Source: Candidatus Moraniibacteriota bacterium
GTDB lineage: Bacteria > Patescibacteriota > Minisyncoccia > Moranbacterales > UBA9337
NCBI GenBank assembly: GCA_028695135.1
Contig: JAQVJM010000007.1
Span: 1-34,674 of the forward strand
Direction: 5' to 3'
Length of the DNA: 34,674 bases
A model generated the notes under the pieces. That model was given only the letters and a program-made list of their open reading frames with translations, had not been told where the DNA came from and did not search any database. Below are positions 4,269 to 11,889 of this stretch, in pieces. Made by a program: the position numbers and the translations under genes. The stretch's first letter is position 1. Every line of letters begins with the position of its first letter.

Positions 4269-4643
4269 ATGGAAGAAAATAGCAATATAAAAATGAGAAG
4301 TTTTAAAAAGAGCGTCCAGTATGCTTTTCGGGGCTTGAAATATGTCATTAAAAATGAGCGCAATTTCAAAATTGAGCTGTTTTTTGCAGTGGCTATTTTA
4401 TTTTTCTGCGCTTTTCTGGGAGTGGAAAGATGGGAACTGGTAGTAATAATATTTTTGACGACTCTTGTTCTAGTGACCGAGCTTATCAACACGGTGGTGG
4501 AGAGAGTGGTTGATATCTTGGAACCGAGAATGCACCCTTTTGCCAAACTGATAAAAGACATAACGGCGGCGATAGTTCTGATATCGGCGATAATGTCCGT
4601 CATTATCGGCTTAATTATTTTTTTGCCCTATATACTCAGATAA
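4269..4643 (+). CDS. dgkA: Diacylglycerol/undecaprenol kinase (DgkA family)
   Basis: FRGLKYVIKNERNFKIEL...ELINTVVERVVDILEP.MHPFAKLIKDITAAIVL. Confidence 0.9.
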   Translation: MEENSNIKMRSFKKSVQYAFRGLKYVIKNERNFKIELFFAVAILFFCAFLGVERWELVVIIFLTTLVLVTELINTVVERVVDILEPRMHPFAKLIKDITAAIVLISAIMSVIIGLIIFLPYILR

Positions 4644-4657
4644 ATTTATTTATTTTT

Positions 4658-5908
4658 ATGTCCAGTAGCAAATTTTTTAGTTTAGATGTCGGATCCAGCA
4701 ATATAAGAATTACGGCTGCCCAATTTGACTCGGAAGGAAAGATGAATATTATCGGAGCCGTATCCGCGCCTTCTGCCGGAGTTAGAAGAGGAGCTGTTAT
4801 CGATATAGAAGAAAATTCCCAGGCGATAAGCTTGGCGGCGGAAAAATTGGAAGGCATTATTGAGCAAAAGATCAAAAATGCGGTTTTGGGAATAGGGGGA
4901 ACGGAGATAAAAATGAATGAATCGAAAGGGGTGATCGCTATCGGCAGGGCTAATGGAGAAGTGAGCGGAGATGATATAGAACGGGTTCTCGAATCGGCTC
5001 AAAATGCTTCTATGCCCGTAAATAATGAAACCGTCCATGTCGTGCCCAAGGAATACAAGCTGGATGATCAATCCGGCATAAAAAATCCGATCGGTATGCA
5101 TGGGATTCGTCTGGAGGTGGACGCTTTGATGATAGAAGACTCCGCCACTCACTTGAGCAACTTGACCAAGAGCGCAAGCCAAGCCGGAATCAGCGTGGGA
5201 GGCATAATGGCAGGCCCTCTGGCTGCGGCAACGGCTGTTCTGGATAAGAATGAGAAAGAATTGGGAGTGGTCGTAATCGATATCGGAGGAGGAACTACTT
5301 CTATTTCAATTTTTGAAGAGGGTGATTTGGCTTATATTTCCGTTTTGCCGATCGGCGCCGGCCATATTACCAATGACATAGCCATAGGATTAAGGGTTCC
5401 CATCGAAACGGCGGAGAAAGTAAAATTAGGATATGGAAGCGCTTTCCCGGAAAATATAAGCAAAAGAGAAATGATAGATTTGAGCATCGTTGACCCTCAG
5501 GAACAAGGAGAGGTTTCCCGTTATCATGTAGCGGAAATAATAGAAGCCAGACTGAGTGAAATATTTGAAATGGTCAACGGAGAACTGAAAAAAATAGGAA
5601 AGGCCGGATTGCTTCCGTCGGGAGCGGTTTTGGTCGGAGGAGGAGCGGAGCTTCATGACATAGTGAATTTTGCCAAAAACTCTCTGGGATTGCCGGCTAA
5701 AGTGGGATATCCCAAAGGGATAAGCGGAATTGTCGACAAAGTCGACTCTCCTTCTTTTGCGGCTTCGATAGGCCTGTTTAGCTATTTGGAAAACGATTCC
5801 TATAAAAAAAGCGGCCGCGGTTATGAAAAGTTTCTATCCATAGGAGGAGTTGATATTAAAAGCATGGGCAAGAAACTAAGGAATTGGACAGATAAATTTT
5901 TACCTTAA
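4658..5908 (+). CDS. ftsA: Cell division protein FtsA
   Basis: SLDVGSSNIRI, VVVIDIGGGTTSISIFEEGDL, GAVLVGGGAEL; directly upstream of ftsZ. Confidence 0.95.
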   Translation: MSSSKFFSLDVGSSNIRITAAQFDSEGKMNIIGAVSAPSAGVRRGAVIDIEENSQAISLAAEKLEGIIEQKIKNAVLGIGGTEIKMNESKGVIAIGRANGEVSGDDIERVLESAQNASMPVNNETVHVVPKEYKLDDQSGIKNPIGMHGIRLEVDALMIEDSATHLSNLTKSASQAGISVGGIMAGPLAAATAVLDKNEKELGVVVIDIGGGTTSISIFEEGDLAYISVLPIGAGHITNDIAIGLRVPIETAEKVKLGYGSAFPENISKREMIDLSIVDPQEQGEVSRYHVAEIIEARLSEIFEMVNGELKKIGKAGLLPSGAVLVGGGAELHDIVNFAKNSLGLPAKVGYPKGISGIVDKVDSPSFAASIGLFSYLENDSYKKSGRGYEKFLSIGGVDIKSMGKKLRNWTDKFLP

Positions 5909-5919
5909 AAAACGTAAAC

Positions 5920-5949
5920 TTGACAGCAAGTTATTTGTTGTGATAGATT
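5920..5949 (+). promoter_or_regulatory. Candidate sigma70 promoter upstream of ftsZ
   Basis: TTGACA (5920-5925), 17-18 nt spacer, ATAGAT/TAGATT. Confidence 0.45.
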
Positions 5950-6042
5950 TATATACCAAGGCAGTTTATCTGTTTTTTAAATCAAAATAAAGTCTAACGT
6001 GTTTGCAGTCTTTCTGCTTATCCGTTAATAACTATCAAGCTT

Positions 6043-7236
6043 ATGGCTGAAATAAAACCAGACATAGAAACATCAGCAAAAATAAAAGTAGTCGGAGTGG
6101 GAGGTTCGGGAGGCAACGCTATAGAGAGGATGATAGAATCAAATATAAAAGGAGTTGAATTTATAGCCATTAATACCGACGCGCAGGATCTGCATCATTC
6201 GAAAGCCAGCGAAAAAGTTCATATAGGAAAAAATCTGACCAAAGGCTTAGGCGCCGGAATGAATCCGGAAATCGGCCGGCAAGCCGCTGAAGAAAATAGA
6301 GATGAGATCCAAGAGGTCTTGAAGGGAGCCGATATGGTTTTTGTTACCTGCGGATTGGGAGGGGGAACCGGATCCGGAGCGGCTCCGATCGTGGCGGAAA
6401 CAGCCAAGGAATTGGGAGCCTTGACGATGGCTGTTGTTACTAAGCCTTTTTCTTTTGAAGGCGCGCAAAGAAGCGCCATTGCCGACGAGGCTCTGGAACA
6501 CCTCAAGAAAAGAGTTGATACTTTTATAACTATACACAACGATAGATTGCTTTCCATAATCGACAAAAAAACCACTTTGATAAACGCTTTTAGAATAGTG
6601 GATGATGTATTGAGACAGGGAGTCCAAGGAGTTTCTGATCTTATAACCAAACCCGGAATAGTCAATGTTGATTTTAATGACGTCAAGGCTGTTATGACGG
6701 ATGGAGGAAGCGCTTTGATGGGAATAGGGGTGGCCAGCGGAGAAAACAGGGCGGCAGAGGCCGCAAAAGCCGCGATAAGCAGCCCTCTCCTGGAGCTTTC
6801 CATAGATGGCGCCAAGGGGGTGTTGTTCAATGTTTCCGGATCCAGCGATCTGACTATGCTTGAAATCAGCGAGGCGGCCAATATCATTACCGAAAATGTT
6901 GATCCTAACGCCAAGGTGATATTCGGAGCGGTTACCAGCGATCAGATAAGGAAAGGAGACATACAGATCACGGTTGTTTCCACTGGTTTTGATTCTGATC
7001 ATGTCAGCGAACCTCCGGCTGACGCTATGTCCAGAGTTAGGGAAGAAGAAATTATGAAAGAAGAACCGGAAGACGAATTGGGGGAAGGATTTGGAAAAAT
7101 AGCTTTTCCGTCTAAAAAAATGATAATTGATGAAAAGGTCCAGCCGAAGAAAGAAAATAATAATATGCAAAGAGAGCCTGAGGAAGATGACGAACTTGAA
7201 ATCCCGGCCTTTATAAGGAGAAAAATGGGGAAATAA
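6043..7236 (+). CDS. ftsZ: Cell division protein FtsZ
   Basis: [33 protein letters not shown] tubulin signature, C-terminal [15 protein letters not shown]. Confidence 0.98.
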
Positions 7237-7680: not shown

Positions 7681-8136
7681 ATGTTATGCCCATTTTGCAA
7701 CCATAGCGAAACCAAGGTTATCGATTCTCGCGATGCCAATGATGGAAAGACTATCAGGCGTAGGAGAGAATGCGAGAAATGCAAAGCGCGTTTCAGCACT
7801 TATGAAGAAGTAGAAATAATGAGGCTTATGGTCGTTAAGAGAAACGGAGAAAAAGAGGAATATGACACGGAAAAAATAAGAAGAGGAATAGACAAATCTT
7901 TGGAAAAAAGGCCGGTGAGTTATGATAAGAAAGACAAGCTCCTGGGAGATATAGAATATTGCATCCACAACAGAAGCAAGGATGGCGAGATAGAGAGTAA
8001 AGAAATCGGAAGAATAATTCTGGAAAAGCTGAAAGAAGCCGACCAAGTGGCCTATCTGAGATTTGCAAGCGTTTACAAATCTTTCGGAAGCCTTAATAGT
8101 TTCAAGAAAGAATTGGAAAAATTAGAAGAAGAATAA
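7681..8136 (+). CDS. nrdR: Transcriptional repressor NrdR (ORF track start 7597 is probably too early)
   Basis: MLCPFCNHSETKVIDSRDANDGKTIRRRRECEKCKARFSTYEEVE then ATP-cone; ATG at 7681 aligns with the canonical NrdR N-terminus. Confidence 0.95.
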   Translation: MLCPFCNHSETKVIDSRDANDGKTIRRRRECEKCKARFSTYEEVEIMRLMVVKRNGEKEEYDTEKIRRGIDKSLEKRPVSYDKKDKLLGDIEYCIHNRSKDGEIESKEIGRIILEKLKEADQVAYLRFASVYKSFGSLNSFKKELEKLEEE

Positions 8137-8327: not shown

Positions 8328-10439
8328 ATGGCAAAAATGAACAAAAAAACAAAAAAAGGAAGGAAAAAATCGGATTCAAAAAAAAGTTCTCAGGCAGTAT
8401 CGAAAATTACAAGAATAATAAAAAGAAGCGGAAAAGTGGTGCCTTTCAAGCAGGAAAAGATAACTAAGGCTGTTTTAAAAGCGTTCGGGGATACCGGAGA
8501 AGGCGGTTTGAGAGAAGCTGAGAAAGTGAGCAAAAAAGTTGTCCAGCTTTTGAATAAAAACTACAAAAAAGGGTATGTCCCGGAAATCGAAGAAATTCAG
8601 GATATGGTTGAAAAGGTGCTGATGATCCTTGATTTTGACGCAACTGCCAAGGCTTATATCTTGTATCGCGATCAGCACAGAAAAGTCCGGGAAACCGAAG
8701 AAGCTTTGAAAGAAGCCGTCGATTTGGTGGACGACTATATCCAGGAAGCCGATTGGAGGATAAAAGAAAACTCCAATATGGGATTTTCTCTCCAGGGGCT
8801 TAATAATTTCATATCTTCGGCGGTAAGCTCAAAATATTGGATGAACAGGGTTTATACCAAAGATGTCCGCGAGGCGCACGAAGAAGGGGATCTGCATGTC
8901 CATGATCTTCAAATGGTGGCAGCCTATTGTTGCGGGTGGGATCTTCACGATCTCTTGCTTAAAGGCTTTGGGGGAGTTCCCGGAAAAGTGCATTCCGCTC
9001 CTCCCAAGCATTTCAGAAGCGCTCTCGGACAGATGGTGAATTTTATCTATACTCTCCAGGGTGAAGCTAACGGGGCGCAGGCTTTTGCTAACTTCGACAC
9101 TTTGTTGGCGCCTTTCGTCCATTATGACAAGCTGAAATATAAGGAAGTGAAGCAGGCTATCCAAGAATTTGTTTTTAATATGAATGTTCCGACAAGGGTG
9201 GGATTTCAAACGCCTTTTTCCAACATAACCTTGGATCTGCAAGCCCCTTCCAATTATAAAGACGAATCAGTCATTATCGGAGGCAAACCGCAGAAGAAAA
9301 AATACGGAGAATTTCAGAAGGAAATGAATATGATAAACAGAGCTTTTGCGGAAGTGATGAGCAAGGGAGATTCGCAAAATAGGGTTTTTACTTTTCCGAT
9401 ACCGACTTACAACATAACCAAAGATTTTGACTGGGAAGATAAGGCGTTAAAGCCGGTCTGGGAAATGACAGCCAAATACGGGATGCCTTATTTCGCCAAT
9501 TTTGTTAATTCTGATATGAGTCCGGATGATGCCAGGAGCATGTGTTGCCGTTTGCGATTGGATAACAGGGAACTAAGGAAAAGAGGGGGAGGCCTTTTCG
9601 GAGCCAATCCGATGACCGGGTCGATAGGAGTAGTGACCATAAATCTTCCGAGGATCGGATATCTGGCCAGGGACAGGAAAGATTTCATGGAAAGACTGGA
9701 TAATTTGATGGATATATCCAAGAACAGCCTTGAATCGAAAAGGGTTTTTATCGAAAGGCTTACGGAGCTGGGGCTTTATCCTTATTCCAGATATTATCTT
9801 GGCGATATAAAAAATAGACGGGGAACCTATTGGGGAAATCATTTTTCCACCATAGGTCTGATCGGAATGAATGAAGCCTTGCTCAACTTGCTGGGAAAAG
9901 ATATAACTACTAAAGAAGGCAATAGGTTTGCCCAAAGAGTTTTGGAGCATATGAGGAAGAGGATGGTCAAGTATCAGAAAGAAACCAATAATATGTACAA
10001 TCTTGAGGCCACTCCAGCTGAAGGAACGACTTACCGGCTGGCCAAGCTGGATCAAAAAAAGTATCCCAAAATAATTTTTGCCAATGACGAAGCTGTAAAA
10101 AAAGACGGAGCGGAGCCTTATTACACCAATTCATCCCAATTGCCGGTAGGATATACCAATGATATATTCGAGGCGCTCGACCTGCAGGATGGGCTTCAGA
10201 CCAAATATACCGGAGGAACGGTGCTCCATGGATTTTTGGGAGAAAAGATCAATGATACCGAGGTGGTCAAGAATTTAGTGAAAAAAATCGCCAACAAATA
10301 TTCATTGCCTTATTTTACCTTTACGCCGACATTCAGTATCTGTCCGGAACATGGATATATAGCGGGAGAGCATGGATTCTGTCCGAAATGCAAAGTTATG
10401 ATCAAAAAAGAGGAAGCCAAATTTGAGACGGTAAAATAA
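8328..10439 (+). CDS. nrdD: Anaerobic (class III) ribonucleoside-triphosphate reductase, catalytic part; lacks the C-terminal glycyl radical motif
   Basis: N-terminal ATP-cone, HVHDLQMVAAYCCGWDL, MCCRLRLD, GSIGVVTINLPRIGYLARD, NNMYNLEATPAEGTTYRLAKLD, C-terminal CPEHGY...CPKC zinc site; no RVxG[YFW] before the stop. Confidence 0.93.
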   Translation: MAKMNKKTKKGRKKSDSKKSSQAVSKITRIIKRSGKVVPFKQEKITKAVLKAFGDTGEGGLREAEKVSKKVVQLLNKNYKKGYVPEIEEIQDMVEKVLMILDFDATAKAYILYRDQHRKVRETEEALKEAVDLVDDYIQEADWRIKENSNMGFSLQGLNNFISSAVSSKYWMNRVYTKDVREAHEEGDLHVHDLQMVAAYCCGWDLHDLLLKGFGGVPGKVHSAPPKHFRSALGQMVNFIYTLQGEANGAQAFANFDTLLAPFVHYDKLKYKEVKQAIQEFVFNMNVPTRVGFQTPFSNITLDLQAPSNYKDESVIIGGKPQKKKYGEFQKEMNMINRAFAEVMSKGDSQNRVFTFPIPTYNITKDFDWEDKALKPVWEMTAKYGMPYFANFVNSDMSPDDARSMCCRLRLDNRELRKRGGGLFGANPMTGSIGVVTINLPRIGYLARDRKDFMERLDNLMDISKNSLESKRVFIERLTELGLYPYSRYYLGDIKNRRGTYWGNHFSTIGLIGMNEALLNLLGKDITTKEGNRFAQRVLEHMRKRMVKYQKETNNMYNLEATPAEGTTYRLAKLDQKKYPKIIFANDEAVKKDGAEPYYTNSSQLPVGYTNDIFEALDLQDGLQTKYTGGTVLHGFLGEKINDTEVVKNLVKKIANKYSLPYFTFTPTFSICPEHGYIAGEHGFCPKCKVMIKKEEAKFETVK

Positions 10440-10491
10440 TAAATTAACTGCTCTTTATAATGAGCGTTTAATATAAACAAAAATAAAAAGC

Positions 10492-10529
10492 GGTTCTGAG
10501 CCTAGGTCGGACTAGTCCCAGAACTGCGA
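10492..10529. other. Stem-loop between nrdD and the glycyl-radical ORF
   Basis: gcggttctg...cagaactgc, 9-bp stem with one G-U; inner ctag/ctag; A-rich on the + strand 5' side, so it would read as a terminator on the - strand. Confidence 0.5.
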
Positions 10530-10535
10530 AAAACT

Positions 10536-10811
10536 ATGAAAGAGGAAATAATTTGCCACGATTGTGGAAAAAAGTTGGGGAAAGGGGAAAAATTCGTAAG
10601 ATTTTCTTCCGTCAGTAAGGGCGAGGATGTTTTTAAATGCGAAAAATGTTTCGATTCAAATCCGGCATTGGAGAACTTCCAAGCCTGTGACGTTTATTCC
10701 AGGGTAGTGGGGTTCCATACCCCGATCAGCCGTTGGAATAAAGGAAAATCTTCCGAGTGGAAAGACAGGAAAACTTTTATTGTGGAAGCATCCGGATGCG
10801 CAAGCTGTTAA
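10536..10811 (+). CDS. Stand-alone glycyl radical domain protein with N-terminal zinc-ribbon-like CxxC pairs (split C-terminal part of class III RNR)
   Basis: CHDCGKKL...CEKCFD...CDVYSRVVGFHTPISRWNKGKSSEWKDRKTF; matches the NrdD C-terminal pattern CEVYSRVVGYxRPVxxWNKGKxEEFKDR; predicted radical Gly59. Confidence 0.85.
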   Translation: MKEEIICHDCGKKLGKGEKFVRFSSVSKGEDVFKCEKCFDSNPALENFQACDVYSRVVGFHTPISRWNKGKSSEWKDRKTFIVEASGCASC

Positions 10812-11187: not shown

Positions 11188-11889
11188 ATGAATATCGCCA
11201 GTTTCCAAAAATTTACCATGGTGGACTATCCGGGATATGTCGCGGCTACGGTTTTTACTGTCGGATGCAATTTCCGCTGTCCGTTTTGCCATAATCCGGA
11301 ATTAGTTCTCGGTTCACAGTTCTCGGTTCACAGCAGTGGAAATGAAAGAGAGTTTTTCAGGTTTCTTGGGACTCGTGAGGGCAAACTGGATGGAGTTTGT
11401 ATTACAGGAGGAGAGCCGACTTTGCAGCCGGATATTATAGAATTTATGATAAAAATAAAAAGCTTAGGCTTTCTTGTGAAATTAGATACCAATGGAACCC
11501 GTCCGGATATCATCAAAAAAGCGCTGGATATGAAAGTTGTCGACTATATTGCCATGGACATAAAAAATTCTCTCAAAAAATACGAAAGAACCGTCGGAGC
11601 CAAAATCGATCTGGAAAGGATAAAGCTGAGTGCGGATCTGATACGTAACAGCCGGATCGATTATGACTTCAGGACGACTGTTGTTCCGGGATTTCACAGT
11701 GAAAAAGATTTTGACGATATTGTCAGTTGGCTCGGCGGATCCAAAAGATATTTCCTCCAAAGATTCAGGGATTTCAAGACTCTTGATCCGGGCTTAAAAG
11801 AAAAAATAAGGGGAAAAAAGGAGCTGGATCTGGAAAAGATCGCCAAAAAGCTTAAAAAACACTTCGGGGAAGTGGGAATCAGGGGCTGA
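11188..11889 (+). CDS. nrdG: Radical SAM anaerobic ribonucleotide reductase activating protein
   Basis: FTMVDYPGYVAATVFTVGCNFRCPFCHNPELV (CxxxCxxC), GVCITGGEPTLQPDI; located after nrdD parts. Confidence 0.9.
   Translation: MNIASFQKFTMVDYPGYVAATVFTVGCNFRCPFCHNPELVLGSQFSVHSSGNEREFFRFLGTREGKLDGVCITGGEPTLQPDIIEFMIKIKSLGFLVKLDTNGTRPDIIKKALDMKVVDYIAMDIKNSLKKYERTVGAKIDLERIKLSADLIRNSRIDYDFRTTVVPGFHSEKDFDDIVSWLGGSKRYFLQRFRDFKTLDPGLKEKIRGKKELDLEKIAKKLKKHFGEVGIRG

Follow-up and report, generated by a model that had tools for sequence, protein, structure and literature searches.

A probable two-polypeptide class III ribonucleotide reductase with its glycyl-radical domain on a separate small protein in Moranbacterales

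Class III ribonucleotide reductases (RNRs) are oxygen-sensitive enzymes that produce the building blocks of DNA. In those of the papers cited here the radical resides in the catalytic chain, and an enzyme with a separate radical subunit would differ from them. The DNA analysed here (the window; 34,674 nucleotides of contig JAQVJM010000007.1) contains a 703-residue NrdD without a glycyl-radical motif (8328..10439, + strand) followed by a 91-residue ORF that has one (10536..10811, + strand), and the question is whether the two make up a single enzyme, as a preliminary description of this DNA had proposed. Its coordinates and lengths for the two ORFs, their common reading frame and the 96-nucleotide gap with in-frame stops between them were reproduced. 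We consider it very probable that the pair constitutes a two-polypeptide class III RNR in which the radical is carried by a separate small subunit, a former spare part that is now the only radical source. This reading is grounded in observations of the anatomy of the two ORFs, their conservation, the selection acting on them, the repeated loss of the in-chain radical tail and the lack of any other RNR found.

The gene order on the + strand, derived from the ORF list and profile matches, is nrdR, nrdD, the small ORF and nrdG2, with NrdG and NrdR genes on either side of the nrdD/small-ORF pair. nrdR (7681..8136; TIGR00244, 180.8 bits; PF22811 and PF03477) encodes the transcriptional repressor of RNR genes, and nrdG2 (11188..11889; TIGR02495, 198.4 bits; PF04055) encodes a 233-residue NrdG2-type radical-SAM activase, the expected installer of the glycyl radical. 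Just upstream of nrdR–nrdD, FtsA-like and FtsZ-like ORFs (4658–7236 of the window) were recognized by inspection of their sequences. The source genome comprises 911 kb in 37 contigs, with a completeness figure of 100%. A PF13597 profile search of this genome matched two places, the long and the small ORF, and found no second NrdD, and a PF02867 search found no class I or II RNR (there was no separate search for the small-subunit families of class I). With no further NrdD and no PF02867 match, the pair is therefore the only RNR found in the genome; an intact second nrdD, which would have refuted the proposal, was not found elsewhere. A full-length NrdD standing beside a small radical protein, the arrangement of GrcA/YfiD, does not occur in this genome.

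The catalytic chain has the PF13597 domain and barrel fold, the barrel and finger-loop cysteines and the nearby NrdG expected of a class III RNR, as well as the ATP cone found in most members, but it lacks a C-terminal glycyl-radical motif of its own, the motif being located on the separate ORF. PF13597 matches over profile positions 1–528 of 562 (618.7 bits) and the NCBIfam model PRK08270 over 3–649 of 684 (1052.7 bits). The N-terminal ATP cone spans residues 29–118 (8412..8681, + strand; PF03477, 83.2 bits). Cys201-Cys202 (YCCGWD; 8928..8933, + strand), of which Cys202 is nearly invariant, contains what we take from family knowledge to be the likely barrel active-site cysteine. Cys406-Cys407 (MCCRL; 9543..9548, + strand) forms the finger-loop double-cysteine motif, the expected site of the thiyl radical, and a double-cysteine class of NrdD has been described (PMC9669993). 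A zinc-site remnant, CPEHGY...CPKC, occupies residues 672–688 (10341..10391, + strand), with Cys685 and Cys688 invariant in alignment A2. The absence of a radical motif downstream was correctly noted in the preliminary description, but the chain does not stop right after the zinc site as stated there, its end lying 15 residues past CPKC. Because the profile match stops at 528 of 562 and the motif is on the other ORF, we filed the protein as a split variant, a non-canonical NrdD.

The small ORF carries the missing part together with a CxxC...CxxC element, as had been recognized: it matches PF13597 over positions 510–562 of 562 (40.7 bits) and consists of a zinc ribbon of its own (Cys7/Cys10/Cys35/Cys38), the radical motif RVVGF within YSRVVGF (10701..10715, + strand; Gly59 codon at 10710–10712) and a Cys-rich tail. 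Both PF13597 scores are far above chance, and since they span 1–528 and 510–562 the two halves overlap at the zinc site and jointly complete the family. Residues C7, C10, C35, C38, Y54, S55, R56, V58, G59, P63 and W67 are invariant in 55 homologues. The second zinc ribbon means that the small ORF is not simply the cut-off end of NrdD; judged from its sequence, the protein is a duplicate of the zinc-plus-radical tail and not a mere continuation of NrdD. A Pfam scan detected no PFL-type radical domain in it, PF13597 (NRDD) being the sole radical-domain match, and the annotation libraries scanned hold no dedicated family for such small ORFs. A PDB sequence search with the small protein returned only zinc-finger cross-matches, which were regarded as chance. 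No clear Shine–Dalgarno site precedes the small ORF. One homologue (L086, GW2011_GWF2_35_54, from the same genome as L041; ORF near 4340–4606) lacks the first CxxC of the ribbon; a misplaced start or a sequencing fault could explain this, as could a genuine absence of the ribbon.

The split is conserved in sister genomes. Within the window's order, Moranbacterales, a separate radical ORF or match is present in 56 of the 57 genomes with a truncated NrdD, and in the lone exception (G065) the contig runs out 153 bases from the truncated NrdD. Among genomes of the order with an intact NrdD a further radical match occurs in 29 of 51 and is absent from 22 (Fisher p = 8e-8 for the association, uncorrected for kinship; the order-wide truncated and intact counts were made by hand from the genome table). 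In two cases with a truncated NrdD the small ORF escaped the initial pattern but is present. Most of the relatives compared are metagenome-assembled genomes; the same split is seen in many genera and in many assemblies made independently, which rules out assembly error. Continuous homologues in sister genomes, another outcome named in advance as a refutation, did occur in some of them; many of these also encode the small protein, in that an intact NrdD is followed by the same 80–100-residue protein, and they therefore represent ancestral and intermediate states and not an artefact. The window's family is mostly split, with an intact NrdD alone in genus g5, and the intermediate state accounts for 27 of the 98 members of the tree set. 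Judged from this arrangement, the small protein beside an intact NrdD in these relatives appears to be a GrcA/YfiD-like spare part for NrdD, its repair role being inferred.

A tree of the 98 NrdD cores, trimmed before the radical tail, requires at least nine changes between intact and truncated forms by parsimony; the label of truncated NrdD plus zinc-radical ORF requires eight, and at least six when only strongly supported branches are used. The exact number is soft, as this is a quick tree from a single matrix and parsimony alone cannot separate gain from loss. On this tree the radical tail disappeared from the NrdD chain on several occasions. Genus g27 includes both an intact NrdD with a spare (G043) and an NrdD that ends ...CEIYSRVL-stop (G028), the stop falling inside the motif one residue before the radical glycine. 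The latter ends about where oxygen cleavage would be expected to leave the chain, and it mimics the O2-cleaved form, as in the spare-part logic of PFL; it also resembles the hand-built form of PFL with a stop placed at Gly734 (PMC8683613).

Both genes are under strong purifying selection and neither is decaying. Pairwise dN/dS in split and intact-plus-spare lineages is 0.025–0.11 for the small protein and 0.02–0.09 for NrdD, although several pairs approach saturation at synonymous sites. In-chain and spare radical domains show no clear sign of gene conversion (76% identity within the same genome versus 73% to the spares of other genomes). The selection bears directly on the reading that the truncated nrdD is a dead gene, the small ORF a fragment and the cell a user of deoxynucleotides salvaged from a host. 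Host-dependent Patescibacteria often lose biosynthesis, and 14 of the 129 genomes of the order have no NrdD match; however, both ORFs of split lineages are under strong purifying selection, the cysteines and motif are invariant and dozens of genera have kept the pair, which leaves this reading very improbable indeed. Alternatively, the small protein might be no more than a spare part or regulator, with some other source providing the truncated NrdD with its radical. The coexistence of the small protein with an intact NrdD in many relatives makes a repair role plausible there, but the two PF13597 matches leave no other NrdD-type radical domain in the source genome (PFL-type domains were outside this search) and truncated NrdDs are almost never found without a separate radical ORF, so that we hold a different source to be very unlikely.

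The gap between the ORFs decides whether they could be joined after transcription, by an intron, ribosomal bypass, readthrough or frameshift, to give a continuous NrdD and no two-subunit enzyme. In the window the two ORFs are in the same frame, and a strong, GC-rich RNA hairpin of unknown role lies between them (10490..10527, + strand; z −4.15), both of which would suit such joining. The gap itself has no ORF and six in-frame stops (TAA, TAA, TAA, TGA, TGA and TAG). In homologues the small ORF can be in any of the three frames with respect to NrdD, at spacings from overlap to a few hundred bases downstream, and unlinked spares accompany an intact NrdD in Staskawiczbacteria and others. Since neither the length of the gap nor the frame is fixed and the two genes are not always linked, splicing, bypassing and readthrough are excluded as a general mechanism, in agreement with the earlier exclusion of simple readthrough from the in-frame stops. 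Further evidence against joining is that no Rfam intron was found, that a fusion would duplicate the zinc ribbon, since the small protein has its own, and that the small protein is kept beside an intact NrdD in many genomes; we regard joining as extremely unlikely. The hairpin is single-copy in the genome, has no Rfam match and is not conserved in the gaps of relatives, and was rejected as a conserved element. With no ORF, no Rfam match and only this single-copy hairpin, no mobile element or remnant was found between the halves.

The shared frame made it possible to build a pseudo-fusion (P0003) by reading through the gap, with stops read as glycine and the gap translated as a linker; it is a modelling device only. 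The AlphaFold2 model (pLDDT 76, pTM 0.71) aligns with solved NrdDs with Z scores of 27–32, residues 120–818 superimposing on 85–735 of P. copri NrdD (Z 32.0, r.m.s.d. 3.3 Å, 555 residues), and its alignment with PFL (2pfl) ends at 820 versus 759. These end offsets place Gly795 of the pseudo-fusion (Gly59 of the small protein) about at Gly711 of P. copri NrdD and Gly734 of PFL. The finger loop and radical loop are of low confidence (block pLDDT about 34–55). Folded alone, the small protein is weakly predicted (pLDDT 65; radical region 55–59), and its zinc ribbon rises from a block pLDDT of 67–83 alone to 79–94 in the fusion. In the model the small protein sits where solved NrdDs carry the glycyl-radical domain. 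A fusion is no proof of binding in trans: AlphaFold may merely recall the NrdD fold, and the pseudo-fusion is no test of binding by separate chains.

In the two-polypeptide enzyme that we favour, the 703-residue NrdD would supply the ATP cone, allosteric sites, barrel and finger-loop cysteine, and the 91-residue protein would supply the glycyl-radical loop, docking at the NrdD barrel in the usual place of the C-terminal tail. The neighbouring NrdG activase would put the radical on Gly59, which would hand it to the finger-loop cysteine (Cys406/407) in each turnover. The small protein may have arisen as a duplicated spare NrdD tail on the GrcA/YfiD logic of repairing O2-cleaved enzyme; with the spare present, the in-chain tail would have become dispensable and have been lost repeatedly, leaving the spare as the only radical subunit. 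A split class III RNR with GrcA-like logic and a sole radical subunit, as outlined in the preliminary description, fits all of the genomic tests. The radical on Gly59, docking, catalytic turnover in trans, exchangeability and the repair role are inferred without biochemistry.

Split NrdDs are found beyond the order. An even sample of 287 Patescibacteria genomes contains about 70 with NrdD, of which at least 32 are split, and many Patescibacteria splits have a shorter radical ORF (45–76 residues) without the zinc ribbon. In two genomes (G237 and G285) a truncated NrdD of another subfamily occurs with a radical protein of ∼145 residues located on another contig or ∼31 kb away on the other strand, and a member of the same family (G373) has an intact NrdD and the same protein, unlinked. 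The N-terminal ∼80 residues of this protein have no convincing Pfam match. The loci of this NrdD subfamily and its unlinked protein are L161/L162, L165/L166 and L179/L180. Separately, NrdD ORFs of ∼1000–1550 residues with a break in the PF13597 match, often near position 157, were noted in G293, G349, G367, G241, G189 and G333, which suggests that they bear inteins. In Desulfobacterota, the Desulfobacterales record CP070697.1 bears an unlinked spare, and about ten other genomes appear to be split (eight were inspected); L307–L314, from this phylum, have split NrdDs in at least two NrdD subfamilies. The NrdD zinc site itself looks degenerate in L312 and L313.

The viral records (L206–L286; 35 IMG/VR contigs plus ANMV-1) were picked by radical-motif match, and the contigs may be fragments. 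In 34 of the 36 the NrdD core is absent and only a stand-alone radical protein of the NrdD type is encoded, the other two having an intact NrdD. These stand-alone proteins have ∼45–147 residues, with or without a zinc ribbon, the named virus example being that of ANMV-1 (144 residues, AJP62049.1), and have no family of their own in PHROGs. Evenly balanced, in our judgement, is the wider proposal that detached NrdD radical subunits are widespread exchangeable radical cartridges, which would re-arm O2-damaged NrdD, serve as the sole radical source in many lineages and be carried alone by viruses as a means of retaining or seizing control over the enzyme of the host.

Only two spare parts, both for PFL, had been validated according to PMC8683613, which allows that others might exist; the present system bears on the open question of spare parts for glycyl-radical enzymes besides PFL. 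It traces an inferred route from a repair protein to an essential subunit, with a visible spare-part stage and several losses of the in-chain counterpart. With two components it is also tractable, because the half that carries the radical could be swapped, labelled or mutated alone. No description was found in the literature on split NrdD, separate glycyl-radical domains, spare parts and Patescibacteria RNRs; this covered open-licence papers only and an earlier description is possible.

Several known systems share features with this one. Interrupted phage nrdD genes, e.g. those of phiAS4 and Lactococcus phage 949 (PMC3653736), also have the nrdD reading frame in pieces, but have been put down to introns, inteins or unexplained breaks, with no independent radical subunit described. 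RNR catalytic chains in two polypeptides are known from the split class II enzyme NrdJa/NrdJb (NrdJab; PMC9669993) and the functional genes-in-pieces NrdA of phage Aeh1 (PMC2988022, PMC3653736). There the break lies in class I or II chains and, in Aeh1, arose via a homing endonuclease, whereas here it is precisely the radical domain that has become detached, a spare-part intermediate exists and no mobile element lies in the gap. With canonical class III NrdDs (P. copri, 8p23/8p2s; T. maritima, 4coi; phage T4, 1h7b) the system shares the ATP cone where present, the barrel, finger-loop cysteine, zinc site, RVxG[YFW] motif and NrdG, but the chain stops before the motif, which is on a separate zinc-ribbon protein. 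A parallel in logic is provided by the PFL spares, E. coli GrcA/YfiD and phage T4 Y06I, in which a small stand-alone glycyl-radical protein likewise completes a tail-less chain; the viral stand-alone proteins resemble Y06I in this respect. In contrast to these spares, the small protein described here is NrdD-type and not PFL-type, has a zinc ribbon instead of a disordered N-terminus and is the only radical source.
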